A DNA stretch of 64,000 nt from Cetobacterium somerae (lineage in GTDB: Bacteria; Fusobacteriota; Fusobacteriia; Fusobacteriales; Fusobacteriaceae), in the NCBI RefSeq assembly GCF_022430525.1, contig NZ_CP092520.1:496001-560000 (forward strand), written 5' to 3'. A model generated the notes under the pieces. That model was not told the origin of the DNA. It ran no database searches and saw nothing but the letters and a program-made list of their open reading frames with translations. The position numbers and the translations under genes were made by a program. Positions 16,757-25,172 of this stretch are shown in pieces. Position 1 is the first letter of the stretch; every line of letters begins with the position of its first letter.

Positions 16757-17638
16757 TTATTTTTGAAAAAGATCTCTATATTCTTTAGGACAAATTCTTT
16801 CATATTTTTTAAAAACTTTTGTAAAATAGCTACTATCTTCAATTCCTATTTCATTTGATATTTCTGATAAAGACTTACTCGTAATCTCTAAAAAATGTTT
16901 AGCCTTCTCAATTTTTTTTATAAGAATATATTCTTTAAAAGTTTTTCCTGTTTCTCGTTTAAAAACTCTACTAAATTGAGAAATACTTAAATTACATAAT
17001 CCTGCTACATCTTCTAAATGAATATTTTCTTTAATATTTTCATTTATATAAGTTACTGCTGAAGAGATTTGAGAATGGCTATATTCTACTCTCTCCTCTT
17101 TTATATTATTTTCAATAATATGATTATACCATTTCTTACTTTTAATACAGTCACTTATATAAACTGATGTATAATGTAAAATACTTGCAATACTCTGGAG
17201 TTCATTATATTTCACTTTTTTTAGAAAGCCATAATTTTCAACAATTTTTTTTATATTAAACTCTTTTCCTACATTTTCAACTAATATATCCTCTAATTCA
17301 AACGTTTCTTCATCTTCTAAAAGTATTTGACCAACTAAAAATGCTCCTATTAATTCACTTTGATAAATAATAGGGATTATCATATCTACTAATCCAGCAT
17401 GGCATCTATAAATATATGGTTTTAATGATAAAAATGCTTTACTTAAAGCTTTTACATCACATTTTTCACAAAACGAACTAAGCTCTTTATTTTTTCTAAA
17501 AATCTTACAAAACTCTGAGTAGTTACTTTTTTCCGTTAAATAATTGCCTTCATCATCTACAATTACTACAGCCATTTTAGTCATATCTACTATCTCTTCC
17601 TGAATTTTTAATAGTTCTTTTTTATATTTATGAAGCAT
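16757..17638 (-). CDS. pocR: PocR-domain AraC-family transcriptional regulator
   Basis: 293 residues. The N-terminal ~160 residues form a PocR-type sensory domain with conserved cysteines C57, C60 and C79 (FCEKCD, RCHAG) and the IIPIIYQSELIGAFLVGQ stretch. The C-terminal ~100 residues are a double helix-turn-helix AraC domain (CNLSISQFSRVFKRETGKTFKEYI, then SNEIGIEDSSYFTKVFKK). In Salmonella, PocR activates the cob and pdu operons in response to propanediol. Here it is the last gene of the dehydratase operon, 20 bases after the reactivase small subunit, so positive autoregulation is plausible. The true inducer here (glycerol or 1,2-propanediol) is not evident. Confidence 0.85.
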   Translation of the reverse strand: MLHKYKKELLKIQEEIVDMTKMAVVIVDDEGNYLTEKSNYSEFCKIFRKNKELSSFCEKCDVKALSKAFLSLKPYIYRCHAGLVDMIIPIIYQSELIGAFLVGQILLEDEETFELEDILVENVGKEFNIKKIVENYGFLKKVKYNELQSIASILHYTSVYISDCIKSKKWYNHIIENNIKEERVEYSHSQISSAVTYINENIKENIHLEDVAGLCNLSISQFSRVFKRETGKTFKEYILIKKIEKAKHFLEITSKSLSEISNEIGIEDSSYFTKVFKKYERICPKEYRDLFQK

Positions 17639-17658
17639 ACCTCACACCTTTCGTTTTA

Positions 17659-17985
17659 TCATAATTTTTTTAAGGGCAATCCTTTTAATAGTCTCGCTGC
17701 ATTTTGACCAAAAATTCTTAAATTTCTTTTAGAGCTTTCAATACTTTCTCTTAGTATATATTTTTTTGTATATTTCTTTTGATTCAAAAGTATCTCTCCA
17801 TCTGAATTAATACCTATTCCTATCTCAAATCTTCCATTTACATAAGACTCTTTATCTATCTTTTCATCTTCTAAAAACTTTAAAATATAAGGAACTCCCT
17901 CTTCTTCTATTCCAAAAAATATCTCCTCTATATCAATCACATTTATAATATTTGAACATACTATGTCTATTCCATTTTTTAGCAT
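17659..17985 (-). CDS. Glycerol/diol dehydratase reactivase, small subunit (DhaG/PduH-like)
   Basis: 108 residues. It partners with the large reactivase to exchange damaged cobalamin from inactivated dehydratase. The FFGIEEEGVPYIL segment (about 23-35) matches the GxEEEGIP motif of DdrB/PduH, and the C-terminal NAARLLKGLP resembles the GxNAARLVKGxPF end. It overlaps the large subunit gene by seven bases. Slightly shorter than enterobacterial counterparts (about 116-125). Confidence 0.85.
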   Translation of the reverse strand: MLKNGIDIVCSNIINVIDIEEIFFGIEEEGVPYILKFLEDEKIDKESYVNGRFEIGIGINSDGEILLNQKKYTKKYILRESIESSKRNLRIFGQNAARLLKGLPLKKL

Positions 17986-19799
17986 TCTCTATCACCTAAA
18001 ACCAATCCTGTTGCCACTGCATTTCTAGGTCCTTCTGTTCCCCTTATATTTCCACAACCAGCAACCACACCATATTTAGAAAGAGCCTCTGTTATCATCT
18101 CTGGTATTTCAAAGTCAAGAGCTGAACCGCCAACAATTATTACAAATTCAAAATCTCTAATATTTTTAGTTAACGATATTTTTCTTAAAGCTCTTTTAGA
18201 ATTTGTTACAAAAACTCTTTTTTTACTCTCTCTTCTAATTTCTCTAATTCTCTCCATAGTGTTTTGAATATCGATTGGAATAAGCTCTCCATTTTTTACC
18301 AACACATTTTTTGCATACAAATTTGGCGACAATGGATCATTAAAAAATTGTACGCTTCCATCTTCATATCTTATATGAAAGAAAGACTCTACTTTTGCTA
18401 ATGGATATTTTTTTATATCTTCAGCTAAATTAAAATTTTCAATTCCAAGTTCTTTTTGAATCAATAAAGTTACCATATTTCCTGCCCCAGCTAAATGTGT
18501 ATGAGATTTTCTTCCAATTTTGTCAATACTACAAGCATCTGTAGATCCTGCTCCAATATCAATTATTGCCAATGGTTTTCCTGTTCCAGGAGTAGTTAAA
18601 GCTCCTTTTATAGCCATATCTGCTTCAACTCCACCAACTTCAACTTCAATACCTAATTCACTCTTTATCAATTTTGCCAAATTTTCCATTTGATTTTTCT
18701 CAGTTCCTACCATTACTGCTAAACCTACAGCATTTTCAAGCATAAACTCTCCAGCTAAGCCACCTTTTATTCTTTGAGGAACAAAAGTGTCAACTGCTAA
18801 TAAATCTTTTATTTTTATATCCTGTATACTCTCACCTGTAAATTTACTCATAGTATTTTTTACATTTCTCAGCATTCCACCTACGTTTGTTCCATCTTCA
18901 CCAAAAATATCTTGTACATTTAAAGTAGATATTTTATCCATGATTTTTTGAGCGCCCTCTTGTATACCTACTTCTTCAGTCGTTTTACAACCTTTTATAT
19001 AGATATTTCCAGCTGGAATAATTTTTTCTTTAACATCTCCTTGAGGAGTTTTTATTACAACACCCGATCTATTTCCTATAAGAGCTTTTGATAAGGGAAC
19101 CACTTTTTTAGTTTCTTCTGAATTTAAATTAAAAATTGTTGCTATTCCATATGGATTTGAAATTTTCTCAATAACTTTTCCTTTTTCAGCTACTTCAACA
19201 CAGCATTTAACACCTAAAGGTATTTTTTCAACCAACTGAACTTCATCAACTATCGGAATTTTTATTAATAATCTATTATTTACAAGAACTCCATCATCTC
19301 TTTGTAAAATAGCGCCTTTGACTTTTACACCTCTATTCATTTCACAATTTAAAATTTTTGCTATTTCTAAAAAATTTTTATCTTTAGCTGCTATAACAAT
19401 ATACTCTTCATCTAACGAAGTAAAATTTAGTTCTTTTAGGTTATCTATATTAATTGTTAAACCTATTCCTATTCCACAACCTCCTGGGGTATCTGGATTA
19501 TGCCCAATCATAGTGGATTCTGTTATTATTGTTTCTGTTATTGTTTCCATTGAAACATCACCAATTACTGGTGTAGCTTCATTTATTCTAATCAAATTTA
19601 AATCTTCTAATTTTAAATCTAATTTTTCTAATAATAAGAAAATTGCTTTTTTTATTCCTTCTATATTTTCTTCAGTTCCCTTTAAACCCGTAGTTTTATA
19701 AAGAGAACTATCTAAAAACTCGACTTTAGAATTACTAACTTTGGCTAAAGCTACTTCAGTAGTAGCATTTCCTATATCAATACCCGCAATAATTTTCAT
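17979..19799 (-). CDS. Glycerol/diol dehydratase reactivase, large subunit (DhaF/DdrA/PduG-like)
   Basis: 606 residues, ATP-dependent chaperone-like factor of the actin/Hsp70-like fold. The N-terminal IAGIDIGNATTEVALAKV is the phosphate-1-type ATPase motif; LAIIDIGAGSTDAC (about 408-421) is the second phosphate motif. The length (DdrA is about 610) and the conserved HNPDTPGGCGIG, RGGLAGEFMLENAVGL-like segments fit. It releases damaged adenosylcobalamin from glycerol dehydratase. It directly follows the three dehydratase subunits, as in Klebsiella and Citrobacter. Confidence 0.92.
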   Translation of the reverse strand: MKIIAGIDIGNATTEVALAKVSNSKVEFLDSSLYKTTGLKGTEENIEGIKKAIFLLLEKLDLKLEDLNLIRINEATPVIGDVSMETITETIITESTMIGHNPDTPGGCGIGIGLTINIDNLKELNFTSLDEEYIVIAAKDKNFLEIAKILNCEMNRGVKVKGAILQRDDGVLVNNRLLIKIPIVDEVQLVEKIPLGVKCCVEVAEKGKVIEKISNPYGIATIFNLNSEETKKVVPLSKALIGNRSGVVIKTPQGDVKEKIIPAGNIYIKGCKTTEEVGIQEGAQKIMDKISTLNVQDIFGEDGTNVGGMLRNVKNTMSKFTGESIQDIKIKDLLAVDTFVPQRIKGGLAGEFMLENAVGLAVMVGTEKNQMENLAKLIKSELGIEVEVGGVEADMAIKGALTTPGTGKPLAIIDIGAGSTDACSIDKIGRKSHTHLAGAGNMVTLLIQKELGIENFNLAEDIKKYPLAKVESFFHIRYEDGSVQFFNDPLSPNLYAKNVLVKNGELIPIDIQNTMERIREIRRESKKRVFVTNSKRALRKISLTKNIRDFEFVIIVGGSALDFEIPEMITEALSKYGVVAGCGNIRGTEGPRNAVATGLVLGDREC

Positions 19800-19812
19800 A
19801 ATTAAATTGCTC

Positions 19813-20235
19813 CTAATCTTTTCTTAACTTTCCTCTTTTTTCATAAATTTCTGCAGCTTCTCTAACAAAATTTGCATTTACAATTGCACCATATTTATTT
19901 TCTAATTCATCAGCTATAGCTAAAAGCTCCTCTTTAGACGATCTATTTGGTCTTAAAGCATTATAAATTTCTAATATTCTTTCGTCTGAAATTTTTACTA
20001 ATTCACTGGCTCTTTGAAAATTTCTTTTTATCGTTGGTTGCCCTGCTGTTTCAGCTACTTCTCCTTGAAGATTAAGTGTTTCTGAAGAGATTCTAATATC
20101 TTGAGCTTTAACATTTTCATCTAAAACGTTTTCTAAAGTGATATCATCTAACGTTTTTCCAGTTGGAGTTTTTAACCACTCTTTTCTCTTCTCTCCTAAA
20201 GGATAATCTAATTCGATATTAATTTTTTTGTTCAT
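19813..20235 (-). CDS. Glycerol/diol dehydratase, small subunit (DhaB3/GldC-like)
   Basis: 140 residues. YPLGEKRKEWLKTPTGKTLDDITLENV near the N-terminus and RASELVKISDERILEIYNALRPNRSS in the middle are hallmarks of the gamma subunit. Klebsiella GldC is 141 residues, whereas PduE is about 173 with an extra N-terminus; the match in length favours the non-encapsulated glycerol-dehydratase form. Sits 11 bases after the medium subunit gene. Confidence 0.9.
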   Translation of the reverse strand: MNKKINIELDYPLGEKRKEWLKTPTGKTLDDITLENVLDENVKAQDIRISSETLNLQGEVAETAGQPTIKRNFQRASELVKISDERILEIYNALRPNRSSKEELLAIADELENKYGAIVNANFVREAAEIYEKRGKLRKD

Positions 20236-20246
20236 CTTTCATCTCC

Positions 20247-20795
20247 TTATTCAAAAGTATATTCTAACTCTTCAGGTTTCTCGTTCTCTTTTACATGTTT
20301 TGTTTCTTTTATATGTAATAACGCTGCTTTTGCTTGATATTTTGGTCTTACCATTTGGTCACTTATAACAGGTACTGGATTTGGCGATTCCCCTTTAGCA
20401 TATTTAGCTGCATTTTTACCTATCAATCTAAAAATTTCTGGTGTTAAAAGAGGGGCTTGGGGAAATAATTCTAGATTATTTAACGGAAGTAAATCCTTTT
20501 GATGTATAACCGTTGTTCCTTTAGATTGTATTCCTATCCCTATTCCAGATCCACTTAATTTAGCTGCATCATTTGCTATAAAACAAACATCTGATGTTCT
20601 GTTTATACGTACTACTCTAGCTATCAATCCTTCTTCTTCTATTCCTGCAATTAACTCCATTAAAACTACATCATGAGGAATATCTGTTATTGTTTTATGT
20701 TGATATTTTTTAAAAGCTGGAGCTAGTCCTATAACTACCTCTTCTATTCTATCACCTTTTTTTGCAATTCCAACCTCTTTTATTTTTATTTCCAT
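20247..20795 (-). CDS. Glycerol/diol dehydratase, medium subunit (DhaB2/GldB-like)
   Basis: 182 residues. [35 protein letters not shown] (key IxAGIEEEGxxxRVVRxxxTSDV) and [23 protein letters not shown] are the family core that contacts adenosylcobalamin. PduD proteins of microcompartments carry a longer N-terminus used for encapsulation (total about 224); this protein lacks it, consistent with a free cytosolic enzyme and with the absence of shell genes. Confidence 0.92.
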
Positions 20796-20804
20796 TTTTT
20801 CCTC

Positions 20805-22469
20805 CTATTCAATACTCTCTGGCTTTATTGCTGTTGGAATATTAGAAATTTCATTCCATCTCTCTTCACTAATTCTGTAACCACTTCCTGGTCCCATATA
20901 ATCATTCTTATCATTTATTGCACTTACAATTTTAAAGTCTTTATTTAAAATTGCTGAAGTTTGAAGATAATCTCCTGAAACTCTTTGTTTTAACATATTT
21001 AACACATTTTCAGCAACATCTTTAAATCCACTTTTGCTTAAAGCTTTTACTAAATCTAAACCTGTTATTCCTCTTTTCAAAAGTTCTTCAGCCCCTTTTA
21101 AATCTTGAACAACATCTCTAACTGGCATATCTTTACTACCATGAGCATAAGTTGCTGCGTACACTTCTTCATCTGTTATTTCTGGTAAATCTAATTCTTT
21201 AAATAATCCTTGAATTGCTTTTGCTGCTTTATTTCTTATTTTTATTACTTCATCTTCAGAAACTGGTCTCAAACCACCATCAACTTTCAAATCTCTTTGT
21301 AAAATATTGTAGTCATCAAAATCCTCAGCATCAAAATTTGATCCTGCAAACATATTATCATAGTTTGGTACTGCACTGTACCCAGAAAATATAAAGTCTG
21401 TTCCTGGTAACATCTGCATTAGAGTTCTTGCCGTTCTTCTTATATCAGAGTGAGAAAAAGTTTGATCATTAGCTGAAGCACATTCTAAATCTAAAAGCAT
21501 TGCTATTAAGTTCTCTCCTAAAACTGCTCTTATACCTCCTGGTAAAGCTCCTGGCATTCCTATGCAACTTACTGCACCATTTTGTAATCCTTGAACACCT
21601 GCTCCTCTTGTTATATAAATACATCTTGTCTCTAAGTACAGCATAGATTTCCCCTCTGAGTACCCCATTAAAGCTTCTGATCCTGTACCTGAAGTGAATC
21701 TCATTTTTAATCCTCTTGAAGCATAAGCCGATGCTAAAAATGCCTTAGACCATGGCGTATCATCTCCATCAGTAAATACTTGCTCTGTTCCATAAACTGA
21801 AACTGTCTCTGCATAGCTTGTAAATCCTTTCATTCCAAGTTCTAGCTCTGTTGCTTCCTCAACTGAACATTGAGTTAGTACTCCACCTCTTCCCACTTGA
21901 GAACCAACAAAAATTGCAATAGCATTAAATGGTGCATATCTTACAATTCCCACTGTTGTTTCTTGTTCATCAAAACCTCTTATTGCAGCTTCTGCTGCAT
22001 CTGCTGCAATTTGAACTGGATTATCTCTTAAATTTGTTACATGACATTGATTCGAAGGAGTTTTTCTAGCTCTCATTTTTTGAACAGCCATCATCATTTC
22101 TACAACGTTTAAATGACTAATAACTTCTACCATCTTTGCCGGTGTTATTCCTGTTGTTATTTTTAAAATATCTTCTTTTTTTACATTTATATCAACCAAT
22201 TTTTTCGCTATTTCAAGCGTTGATAACTTCATAGCTTCCTCAGCATAGCTTAAATCAATTGCATAATCAGCTATAAAAAGATCAATCATATCAAAATCTT
22301 CTCTTTTTTTACCATCTAATTCAATTATTTTTCCATCTTTAATTGCAAGACTTGATTTAGGATCTAAAGGACTATCCATAGCTATTAATCCTTCTTCCTT
22401 CCACTCACCTATAAACCCATCTTTATTTACTGCACGTTCACTTAAAACCTCAAAACGTTTTGATCTCAT
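20805..22469 (-). CDS. dhaB: Glycerol/diol dehydratase, large catalytic subunit (DhaB1/GldA-like)
   Basis: 554 residues, the TIM-barrel alpha subunit that uses adenosylcobalamin radicals to dehydrate glycerol to 3-hydroxypropionaldehyde (or 1,2-propanediol to propanal). MRSKRFEVLSERAVNKDGFIGEW, KMRARKTPSNQCHVTN (key MRARRTPxNQxHVTN), RFTSGTGSEALMGYSEGKSMLYLE and GMPGALPGGIRAVLGENL are strongly conserved. The length equals that of known enzymes (554-555). Substrate preference is inferred from the linked dhaT, not from active-site residues. Symbol used loosely for the family. Confidence 0.93.
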   Translation of the reverse strand: MRSKRFEVLSERAVNKDGFIGEWKEEGLIAMDSPLDPKSSLAIKDGKIIELDGKKREDFDMIDLFIADYAIDLSYAEEAMKLSTLEIAKKLVDINVKKEDILKITTGITPAKMVEVISHLNVVEMMMAVQKMRARKTPSNQCHVTNLRDNPVQIAADAAEAAIRGFDEQETTVGIVRYAPFNAIAIFVGSQVGRGGVLTQCSVEEATELELGMKGFTSYAETVSVYGTEQVFTDGDDTPWSKAFLASAYASRGLKMRFTSGTGSEALMGYSEGKSMLYLETRCIYITRGAGVQGLQNGAVSCIGMPGALPGGIRAVLGENLIAMLLDLECASANDQTFSHSDIRRTARTLMQMLPGTDFIFSGYSAVPNYDNMFAGSNFDAEDFDDYNILQRDLKVDGGLRPVSEDEVIKIRNKAAKAIQGLFKELDLPEITDEEVYAATYAHGSKDMPVRDVVQDLKGAEELLKRGITGLDLVKALSKSGFKDVAENVLNMLKQRVSGDYLQTSAILNKDFKIVSAINDKNDYMGPGSGYRISEERWNEISNIPTAIKPESIE

Positions 22470-22484
22470 CGTTCCTCCTATAAA

Positions 22485-22901
22485 TTATAAAGAATTTAAT
22501 GCTGCTTTTGCTATCTCCATGTCCTCTTCTACAGTTCCACCGCTTACTCCAACGGCTCCTACAATTTCATCATTTATAATAATTGGGAATCCTCCACCAA
22601 AAGTTATTATTCTAGAGTTATTTGTCAAATTTAAACCATATAGACTTTGCCCTGGTAAAACTACTTCACTAAGCTCATTTGTACCACTCTTTAATGCCCA
22701 TGCTGTAAAAGCCTTATTAATTGCTATATCAACACTTGTTACAAAAGCTTCATCCATTCTTTCTAAATACAATAAATTACCACCATTATCTACTACTGAA
22801 AACACAACTGGGACTTTTATTTCTATTGCTTTTTTTAATGCTGCTTTACCCATTTTTTTTGAAGCTTCTAAAGTAATTTGATTAAAACTCTTAATAATCA
22901 T
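22485..22901 (-). CDS. GlcG/HbpS (DUF336, PduO C-terminal-like) protein, possible heme binder
   Basis: 138 residues. The sequence KKAIEIKVPVVFSVVDNGGNLLYLERMDEA and the glycine-rich GGGFPIIINDEIVGAVGVSGGTVEEDMEIAKAAL stretch (key GGxP and GAIGVSGG) define the HbpS/GlcG fold, the same domain as the C-terminal half of PduO. PduO's C-domain binds heme, whereas its N-domain is the adenosyltransferase, which is absent here. First gene of the dehydratase operon, 15 bases before dhaB1. It may protect or reactivate B12 enzymes or sense heme; this is inference. Confidence 0.82.
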   Translation of the reverse strand: MIIKSFNQITLEASKKMGKAALKKAIEIKVPVVFSVVDNGGNLLYLERMDEAFVTSVDIAINKAFTAWALKSGTNELSEVVLPGQSLYGLNLTNNSRIITFGGGFPIIINDEIVGAVGVSGGTVEEDMEIAKAALNSL

Positions 22902-23131
22902 AACTTTTCCTCCCTATACTTTTTATTTTTTTGTTCGTATATCGAATATTAACAACTTTTTCTATATACTTCAAGGTAATAATCAATCTTAGATTTGTAC
23001 TTTTTTGTCATTTTTTATATTTTTGATTTTTTTTTACCATTTTTAGGTATTTTTTTACCTTGTTTACATTCTATTTTTTTGTTACTCTTAAATTGAAACA
23101 AGAATTACTTTATTTCGGGAGGAGATTATTA
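22902..23131. promoter_or_regulatory. Divergent control region between the dehydratase operon and dhaT
   Basis: This 230-base, very T-rich region must hold both promoters. An inverted AGGTA/TACCT pair (AGGTATTTTTTTACCT, 23044-23059) and a further AAGGTAAT at 22973-22980 may be activator half-sites, for example for the linked PocR. I cannot assign -35/-10 boxes with confidence. Confidence 0.35.
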
Positions 23132-24289
23132 ATGAGATTTTATGATTATTTAATGCCTAGTGTTAACTTTTTTGGCCCTGGATGCCTTAGTGTAGTTGGG
23201 GATAGAGCTCAAATACTTAATGGAAAAAAAGCTTTAATCGTTACTGATAAATTTTTACACTCTTTAAAAGATGGAGCTGTAGAAAAAACTATAAAGTATT
23301 TAAACGAAGCTGGAATAGAAAGTGTTGTATTTGACAATGTTGAGCCTAATCCTAAAGATACAAATGTGTATGAAGGTGCAGATATGTATAAAAAAGAAGG
23401 GTGTGACATGATAATAACTGTAGGTGGAGGTTCTCCTCATGACTGCGGTAAAGGTATCGGAATAGCTGTTACACATCCTGGTGATATTTGTGACTACGCT
23501 GGAATTGAGACTCTTATAAATCCACTTCCTCCTATTATAGCTATTAACACAACTGCTGGAACTGCTTCTGAAGTTACTAGACATGCTGTTATTACTAATA
23601 CTAAAACTAAAGTTAAATTTGTTATTGTAAGTTGGAGAAATCTGCCTCAAGTTTCTATCAATGACCCACTACTTATGGTTGGAAAACCCGCTGGTTTAAC
23701 TGCTGCAACAGGTATGGACGCTCTTACTCATGCTATTGAAGCTTATGTTTCTAAAGATGCCAATCCTGTTACAGATGCTGCTGCTATTCAAGCAATAAAA
23801 TTAATTTCACAAAATTTAAGACAAGCTGTTGCTAATGGTGAAAACTTGAAAGCTAGAGAAAATATGGCCTATGGATCGCTTTTAGCAGGTATGGCTTTTA
23901 ATAATGGAAACTTAGGATATGTTCATGCTATGGCTCATCAATTAGGTGGACTTTATGATATGCCACATGGTGTTGCTAACGCTATGTTACTTCCTCATGT
24001 TTGTCGTTACAATATGATTGCTAATCCTGAAAAGTTTGCTGATATAGCTGAATTTATGGGAGAGAAAACAGATGGACTTTCTGTTATTGAAGCTGCTGAA
24101 AAATCAATTGAAGCTATTTTTAGACTTTCAGGAGATGTTGGAATTCCTAAAAGTTTAAAAGAAGCTGGAGTTAAAGAGGAAGATATTGAACTTATGTCTA
24201 GCAATGCTTTAAAAGATGGAAATGCATTTAGTAATCCAAGAAAAGGTAATGAGAGAGATATTGCAAATATTTTTAAAAGTGCTATGTAA
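23132..24289 (+). CDS. dhaT: 1,3-Propanediol dehydrogenase (DhaT-like iron-dependent alcohol dehydrogenase)
   Basis: 385 residues from the ATG at 23132, which follows GGGAGGAG by 8 bases; the frame is open 24 codons further upstream but that extension is T-rich spacer. It reduces 3-hydroxypropionaldehyde to 1,3-propanediol with NADH. FGPGCLSVVG, the NAD-binding ITVGGGSPHDCGKGIG (about 97-112), INTTAGTASEVTR, and metal ligands in GMDALTHAIEAY and VHAMAHQLGGLYDMPHGVANA place it in the type III Fe-ADH family. The length matches DhaT (387). Divergent from the glycerol dehydratase operon, which supports the substrate. Other Fe-ADHs (ethanol, lactaldehyde) are close relatives. Confidence 0.88.
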   Translation: MRFYDYLMPSVNFFGPGCLSVVGDRAQILNGKKALIVTDKFLHSLKDGAVEKTIKYLNEAGIESVVFDNVEPNPKDTNVYEGADMYKKEGCDMIITVGGGSPHDCGKGIGIAVTHPGDICDYAGIETLINPLPPIIAINTTAGTASEVTRHAVITNTKTKVKFVIVSWRNLPQVSINDPLLMVGKPAGLTAATGMDALTHAIEAYVSKDANPVTDAAAIQAIKLISQNLRQAVANGENLKARENMAYGSLLAGMAFNNGNLGYVHAMAHQLGGLYDMPHGVANAMLLPHVCRYNMIANPEKFADIAEFMGEKTDGLSVIEAAEKSIEAIFRLSGDVGIPKSLKEAGVKEEDIELMSSNALKDGNAFSNPRKGNERDIANIFKSAM

Positions 24290-24294
24290 TAAAT

Positions 24295-24322
24295 AAAAGA
24301 CCTCCAATGGGAGGTCTTTTTT
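24295..24322. terminator. Bidirectional terminator after dhaT
   Basis: A stem pairs 24295-24305 (AAAAGACCTCC) with 24310-24320, followed by T-rich sequence, between convergent dhaT and the lipoprotein gene. Confidence 0.9.
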
Positions 24323-24677
24323 AATATGATGAACTATACGGTTGACTATAATAAGGTTTATTATATTGTTGATTTGTATTATACTGAGGTTGATTATATT
24401 GTGGTTGGCTATATTGCGGTTGATTATTATAATATGGTTGCTGGTTTGTATCTTTTATAGCCTGAGTTTGATCTTGAACTGAACCAACTAATGCACCTGC
24501 TGCTGCACCTATACCTGCTCCTAAAAGAGTTGCTCCAGTATCTCCACCTATCGCTTGTCCTAAAAGAGCTCCTGCTCCTGCTCCAACTGTTGTTGAACCA
24601 ATTGTATTTGATCCAACATTAGAACATCCTGATAAAAGTACTACAGATAAAACTGATAATATTAGATATTTTTTCAT
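24321..24677 (-). CDS. Glycine-zipper lipoprotein with Gln/Tyr-rich tail
   Basis: 118 residues. MKKYLILSVLSVVLLSGCSN is a lipoprotein signal with lipobox LSGC (Cys18). Residues about 30-66 are a glycine-zipper (GAGAGALLGQAIGGDTGATLLGAG, then GAAAGALVGS), typical of small outer-membrane or periplasm-facing lipoproteins. The last ~45 residues are low complexity, with repeated QPQY/QPY units. The specific function is unknown. It lies 33 bases after the UGA-containing gene on the same strand and may share its transcript. Confidence 0.8.
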   Translation of the reverse strand: MKKYLILSVLSVVLLSGCSNVGSNTIGSTTVGAGAGALLGQAIGGDTGATLLGAGIGAAAGALVGSVQDQTQAIKDTNQQPYYNNQPQYSQPQYNQPQYNTNQQYNKPYYSQPYSSSY

Positions 24678-24710: not shown

Positions 24711-25007
24711 TTAAAACGTTTCTACATCTATTACCATTGGAAAAAAAGGTATTTTTAACACTTTAAAAATTTTATAATTTTTATTTTGTGGAACACTCTC
24801 ATCTATATAAATATTGACTCCACTAAAAATTATTTTTCTATTTTTACCAAGATTTTTATTTTGTGCCTCCGTTAACAGTTCAACCTGAACACTAAAAATA
24901 ACAGGACATCACTTACTACCTTTTGTACTTTCTAAATACAACTTTATATCTTTGATGTTTTTCTTTTCTAAATAGTTTAAAACTTCTTGAGTAATTTCTA
25001 TCTTCAT
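24711..25007 (-). CDS. HesB-like selenoprotein with in-frame UGA (selenocysteine)
   Basis: Reading UGA as selenocysteine gives one 98-residue frame from the ATG at 25007 to the TAA at 24711-24713. The UGA is codon 33 (24909-24911) in the context KGSK-U-CPVIFSV. The protein starts MKIEITQEVLNYLEKK, like the HesB/IscA fold, and Sec lies where IscA proteins have their first cluster-binding cysteine (GGCSG). The C-terminal CxC of true IscA is missing. A family of HesB-like selenoproteins with this arrangement is established. A hairpin 3' of the UGA fits a bacterial SECIS. GAGG stands 8 bases before the ATG, inside the end of the preceding small gene. Conventional gene calling would miss or split it. 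A role in iron-sulfur or redox chemistry is only inferred. Confidence 0.85.
24871..24906 (-). promoter_or_regulatory. Predicted bacterial SECIS element
   Basis: In the mRNA (minus strand), directly downstream of the UGA, CTGTTA (about 24900-24905) can pair with TAACGG (about 24869-24874), enclosing an upper stem GTTC/GAAC (24887-24890 with 24878-24881) with the apical loop AGGTT (24882-24886). A short stem with GGU in the loop about 20 bases after UGA is the geometry recognised by SelB, similar to the AGGUCU loop of E. coli fdhF. Confidence 0.72.
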
Positions 25008-25010
25008 TAA

Positions 25011-25172
25011 TTATTCCTCTACAATAATAGTTCTATTTATCATAAACTTTATAAGAGAGAATAAAAAGAATGGAGAGGCTAATCCAAAAGTTATTACAAC
25101 TAAAACTGTCCATCCTAGTAAAAATAATAAACTATCTGCAAATCCTACATCACATCTTAATCTTCTTGCCAT
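25011..25172 (-). CDS. 53-residue membrane protein upstream of the HesB-like selenoprotein
   Basis: A short frame from ATG (25172) to TAA (25011-25013). The ATG is preceded by GAGGTGAAG, a good ribosome binding site. The product begins MARRLRCDVGFADSLLFLLG and has one or two hydrophobic segments (LLFLLGWTVLVVITFGLA, then PFFLFSLIKFMI) and a polar end. The pattern G-W-T-x-L-x-x-x-T-x-G, then P-F, then a Lys-containing helix resembles small DUF6693/DUF898-type membrane proteins; this is tentative. Only three bases separate it from the selenoprotein start, whose ribosome binding site lies in its last codons, so the two are probably translationally coupled. Confidence 0.68.
   Translation of the reverse strand: MARRLRCDVGFADSLLFLLGWTVLVVITFGLASPFFLFSLIKFMINRTIIVEE

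Follow-up and report, generated by a model that had tools for sequence, protein, structure and literature searches.

The locus lies on the minus strand of the window, by which we mean the whole 64,000-nucleotide stretch of Cetobacterium somerae DNA that was analysed, where a predicted selenoprotein gene stands between genes for a small membrane protein and a lipoprotein (Table 1). Its ATG follows the upstream gene after 3 nt, and an intrinsic terminator probably closes the resulting three-gene operon. The frame extends from ATG to TAA with a single internal stop, a UGA at codon 33, directly followed by TGT; read through, its full product is MKIEITQEVLNYLEKKNIKDIKLYLESTKGSK-U-CPVIFSVQVELLTEAQNKNLGKNRKIIFSGVNIYIDESVPQNKNYKIFKVLKIPFFPMVIDVETF. 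Translation therefore confirms the first-pass annotation of this DNA, which had proposed one 98-codon gene provided that the UGA is translated, with Sec33 succeeded by Cys34. These are the only Sec and Cys residues of the protein, and since none follows residue 34, the C-terminal cysteines of IscA are indeed lacking, as had also been stated.

Table 1. Features of the operon and its surroundings (window coordinates).
Feature	Position	Strand	Description and basis
Predicted 98-residue selenoprotein gene	24711..25007	-	MKIEITQEVLNYLEKKNIKDIKLYLESTKGSK-U-CPVIF..., stop TAA; translation with TGA as U, orthologs, dN/dS
In-frame UGA, read as Sec33, Cys34 next	24909..24911	-	TGT (Cys) in relative G011
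Apical hairpin of putative SECIS element, GUUCA-GGU-UGAAC	24878..24890	-	Loop 24883-24885; fold; same place in 12 Sec-form genes
Likely ribosome-binding site, AGAGGA	25015..25020	-	Within 3' end of upstream gene; read from the sequence
Upstream gene, 53-residue membrane protein, DUF6693 family	25011..25172	-	Pfam PF20403, 49.4 bits
Downstream gene, glycine-zipper lipoprotein (YMGG-like)	24321..24677	-	Pfam PF13441, 32.5 bits
Intrinsic terminator	24295..24320	-	11-bp stem, T tail

The DUF6693 and lipoprotein neighbours give no functional clue; in other genera the gene has different, unrelated neighbours. Among named records, the nearest are an uncultured Cetobacterium MAG (92 %) and plasmid p1 of C. 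somerae (94 %), which keeps the gene order; the C. somerae copy of the gene is located on a 664-kb plasmid. Next to the operon (window 16757-24289) is a diol/glycerol dehydratase cluster that encodes large, medium and small subunits, a PduG-type reactivase and a PocR/AraC regulator, together with an iron-containing alcohol dehydrogenase.

Within the window, the UGA of this gene stands apart from all other in-frame TGAs. Both strands together hold 1981 TGAs of the stop type, of which 19 (1 %) are followed by a comparable hairpin and 43 are flanked on both sides by long open frames (20 or more open codons on the 5' side, 45 or more on the 3' side); only the TGA at 24909-24911 combines the two properties. 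Furthermore, the genome possesses the machinery for selenocysteine insertion, whose SelA, SelB, SelC and SelD the first-pass annotation had presumed: SelB (296.9 bits), a tRNA-Sec with anticodon UCA (68.6 bits), and SelA (571.6 bits), SelD (355.2 bits) and YedF (225.2 bits) in one 8-kb stretch. The selD gene itself (L017:9698-10730, minus strand, in the sel cluster of contig C1) is likewise interrupted by an in-frame UGA (CSIGG-U-ASKIG), 3' of which lies a hairpin with a GGA loop, and a standard ORF finder starts this gene late, at a GTG past the UGA. Given the machinery and the UGA of selD, recoding is to be expected in the Cetobacterium cell. Adjoining selD, a single 659-residue frame (L017:10772-12751, minus strand) fuses a 3-dehydroquinate synthase (AroB) to an exopolyphosphatase (Ppx/GppA) domain. 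A literature search on Cetobacterium selenoproteins returned nothing relevant.

The distribution of Sec and Cys forms among relatives provides further evidence. The gene is present in five of 12 Cetobacterium genomes, with TGA in G000, G002, G008 and G003 (66-95 % protein identity among these four) and TGT in G011, where the site reads KGSKCCPV; C. somerae p1 likewise has TGA at the same codon as G002, G008 and G003. SelB exceeds its family cutoff in 11 of the 12 genomes, the exception being G011, in which neither SelB nor tRNA-Sec was found. As this assembly is 82 % complete, both absences could be assembly gaps, though they are mutually consistent. A five-sequence profile found matches in 15 of 98 Fusobacteriota genomes, to which a family-model search added three members of group g14. 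Distant Sec forms with UGA at the aligned position occur in seven g14 genomes (G-U-C, mostly GG-U-CAG; loci L034-L037, L041, L048 and L052) and in one g4 genome (FG-U-AGC), while Cys forms occur in g8 (KGCC) and g6 (CSMC). In the three g14 loci that were read (L034, L035 and L037), the gene follows that of a Lon-like AAA+ protease, and the g14 Sec form may likewise be unannotated.

The choice between Sec and Cys largely tracks the machinery. Outside the genus, eight genomes have the Sec form; SelB is found in seven of them, and the eighth (G058) is 76 % complete. The Cys-form g6 genomes possess neither SelB nor tRNA-Sec. Against this pattern, the g8 genomes use Cys despite having the Sec machinery; SelB together with a Cys form is seen in G041, G042 and G043. 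The Sec33 column is the only invariant one besides the initiator (14 of 14 aligned sequences), and the weakly resolved tree requires about three Sec/Cys changes. Homologs thus carry Cys or Sec exactly at codon 33 and are not interrupted at random positions, an outcome that would have spoken against a selenoprotein. UGA readthrough is known in bacteria, and in principle the codon could be read independently of SelB, by the tRNA for Trp or a different near-cognate one. We regard such a reading as very improbable, since TGA terminates six open frames of at least 200 codons in the window, none of the homologs has TGG at the site (the alternatives being the Cys codons TGT and TGC), the machinery correlates with the Sec form and a SECIS-like hairpin is present.

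Alternatively, UGA33 could be a nonsense mutation in a decaying pseudogene. The patchiness of the gene within the genus and its product of only 32 residues under the standard code are compatible with such decay. Empty sites, with the DUF6693 and lipoprotein genes directly adjacent and the selenoprotein gene absent, are found in four of the 12 Cetobacterium genomes (L057-L060), which indicates gain or loss of the gene as one unit in these genomes. However, four Cetobacterium genomes and two other genus groups share the UGA, the frame has acquired no second stop, and selection at the protein level is evident on both sides of the UGA: dN/dS ranges between 0.18 and 0.39 before and between 0.33 and 0.43 after it in Cetobacterium pairs, and is below 1 on both sides in all g14 pairs. 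In addition, G000 and G003 differ in length by two codons 3' of the UGA, with the frame kept, which together with these ratios argues strongly against decay. The UGA therefore lies within a conserved coding frame, and the conserved codon and the downstream constraint already largely refute the pseudogene, to which we give scarcely any credence.

Downstream of the UGA, a hairpin with a 5-bp stem and a GGU loop begins its loop after 23 nt, so that its placement in the first-pass annotation (about 22 bases after the UGA, loop at 24882-24886) was correct to within 1-2 nt. These dimensions agree with the bacterial SECIS model, which specifies a loop of 3-9 nt, an upper stem of 4-16 bp, a spacing of 16-37 nt and a G within the first two loop positions (PMC13188914). 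The folding energy of segments holding the hairpin is ordinary (z -0.2 to -1.15), and an Rfam search returned sub-threshold matches near the terminator only and none on the hairpin. Since the energy is uninformative, the evidential weight of the hairpin rests on its position, its loop and its conservation. Across three genus groups, its start relative to the UGA is identical in 12 genes of the Sec form, and its outer pair is formed in all 12 (C-G in seven, G-C in four, A-U in one), the replacements amounting to only about two independent ones; in one Sec form, that of G003, the stem contains a mismatch. The GTT-CAG-GTT-GAA core encodes a conserved V-Q-V-E, and hairpin conservation could consequently reflect protein constraint in part. 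Changes of the outer pair, by contrast, alter the encoded residues (V..L, L..A, I..F), and for this pairing protein constraint alone is a poor explanation.

The Cys forms differ in what they retain of this element. Those of g8 have lost the hairpin, whereas that of G011 can still pair (AUUCA-AGU-UGAAU) with the first loop G replaced by A. The latter is reminiscent of the HesB-like Cys form with a remnant SECIS in Desulfitobacterium hafniense (PMC1794560 Fig. 4b), although that protein belongs to another subfamily and in G011 SelB and tRNA-Sec were not found either. The further Sec form of g4, in genome G027 (L040:1501-1800), has the hairpin AAUUCA-GGG-UGAAUU; it is strongly divergent and may represent a subfamily of its own.

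Taken together, the conserved UGA, the Sec/Cys exchange tracking the machinery, the hairpin and the selection at the protein level provide comparative support for Sec decoding, and we put the probability that UGA33 is decoded as selenocysteine at roughly 0.9. SelB charged with Sec-tRNA(Sec) would bind the GGU-loop hairpin and direct Sec into position 33, yielding a selenoprotein of about 11 kDa with a vicinal Sec33-Cys34 pair as its only Sec and Cys residues. Gene finders and current models overlook this gene or cut it short, and the first-pass forecast for standard annotation proved correct. For instance, in C. somerae NZ_CP143320.1 it is listed as VSU16_RS10555, a 51-residue hypothetical protein starting at an ATG 43 nt past the UGA; the window strain has GCA in its place, and the ORF list consequently retains only the 32-codon frame.

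Less straightforward is the family to which the protein belongs. The first-pass annotation had assigned it to the HesB-like selenoproteins, and such membership would account for its length of about 98 residues, its A-type-like N-terminal half, the position of Sec at the site of the first conserved Cys, and the missing C-terminal cysteines. Both groups are small, A-type-related, biochemically uncharacterised and equipped with a single Sec. However, the corresponding model, TIGR01911 (cutoff 66.35 bits), did not match the protein even at an E-value of 10, nor anything in its genome or in 98 Fusobacteriota genomes, while it found matches in six of 14 control genomes. Moreover, the protein has U33-C34-P35-V36 in place of the UxGP motif of HesB-like selenoproteins (PMC13188914 Table 1). 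TIGR01911 was therefore rejected as the family name, and we consider true membership improbable.

Two other models come closer, each below its cutoff. NF041239 (the "CC/Se motif family (seleno)protein"), whose first prediction came from Moorella thermoacetica, aligns with residues 1-80 at 20.2 bits (E 4.5e-4; cutoff 40) and with the Fusobacteriota relatives at 14.7-32.6 bits, all under 40 and with G011 unmatched. Among NCBIfam models it is the best, or the only informative, one for the relatives in Cetobacterium, g8, g14, g6 and g4, and its members are similar in size (about 91-98 residues) and likewise occur as Cys or Sec forms; their reviewed motif is CxxU, whereas in the Cetobacterium protein Sec comes first (U-C). 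Pfam PF01521, representing the A-type carriers IscA, SufA and ErpA (also TIGR00049), scores 25.9 bits (E 1.3e-5), marginally under the gathering cutoff of 26.3, with residues 1-70 aligned to Pfam positions 1-72 and Sec/Cys33 falling approximately at the Cys region of GGCSG. The C-terminal CGC, which supplies the CxC cluster ligands of A-type carriers, is missing. Members of g14 match IscA/SufA-type models weakly.

Kinship with the A-type proteins (HesB/IscA) is plausible, if weak. The placement of Sec33 at the first IscA cysteine holds as a rough correspondence. With hhalign, nothing significant was found against two typical A-type sequences, an approximate E. coli IscA and a second one that is the same, or almost the same, as the PDB entry for Haemophilus HI1723, though the template was very thin. 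A PDB sequence search found no relative, and an AlphaFold model (two sequences) reached a pLDDT of only 39, too low to be of use. Since TIGR01911 is unmatched and both NF041239 and PF01521 remain below their cutoffs, we call the protein A-type-like and place it in a new Fusobacteriota subfamily near NF041239; it would belong, at a distance, to the A-type (IscA/HesB-like) neighbourhood while lacking the C-terminal CxC.

What might such a protein do? One possibility is that it still functions as an A-type Fe-S carrier, with a cluster held by Sec33 and Cys34 of two subunits, in replacement of the A-type carriers missing from Fusobacteria. The PF01521 similarity over residues 1-70 would fit, as would the lack of any above-cutoff PF01521 protein in the 12 Cetobacterium genomes, which agrees with a report that Fusobacteria have no A-type carriers (PMC2682760). 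We nevertheless judge this unlikely, as both C-terminal cluster ligands are missing, the gene does not adjoin isc, suf or nif genes, and seven of the 12 Cetobacterium genomes have no detectable copy, so that it is not essential to the genus. With the three-cysteine Fe-S site of IscA unable to form, the selenol-thiol pair is the most likely chemistry: adjacent selenol and thiol groups with no third ligand suit a selenenylsulfide or a soft-metal site better than an IscA-type cluster. That the pair is redox-active (as a selenenylsulfide) or serves as a binding site for a soft metal or metalloid is a tentative proposal, to which we give slightly less than even odds. The sole experimental background found is from M. 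maripaludis, in which a mutant of the HesB-like selenoprotein, itself of unclear function, shows normal nitrogen fixation (PMC11097638).

Our best reading of the sequence data is, therefore, that these small A-type-like selenoproteins form a new subfamily in Fusobacteriota, very probably decoded by SelB and bearing what would be a Sec-Cys site for redox or soft-metal chemistry. In its wider form, the chances of which we see as evenly balanced, a subfamily overlooked by current models would have turned an A-type-like scaffold away from Fe-S handling and given it a centre of vicinal selenol and thiol, exchanging Sec for Cys in a lineage where the machinery is apparently gone. The gene adds a well-supported selenoprotein to a fish-gut genus. 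Furthermore, the natural Sec/Cys series, with UGA accompanied by the machinery and TGT where none was found, together with the compensatory changes in the hairpin, is well suited to tests of SelB recognition. Finally, if the A-type kinship is true, Cetobacterium would offer a simple system, devoid of other A-type carriers, in which the role of HesB-like selenoproteins could be probed.
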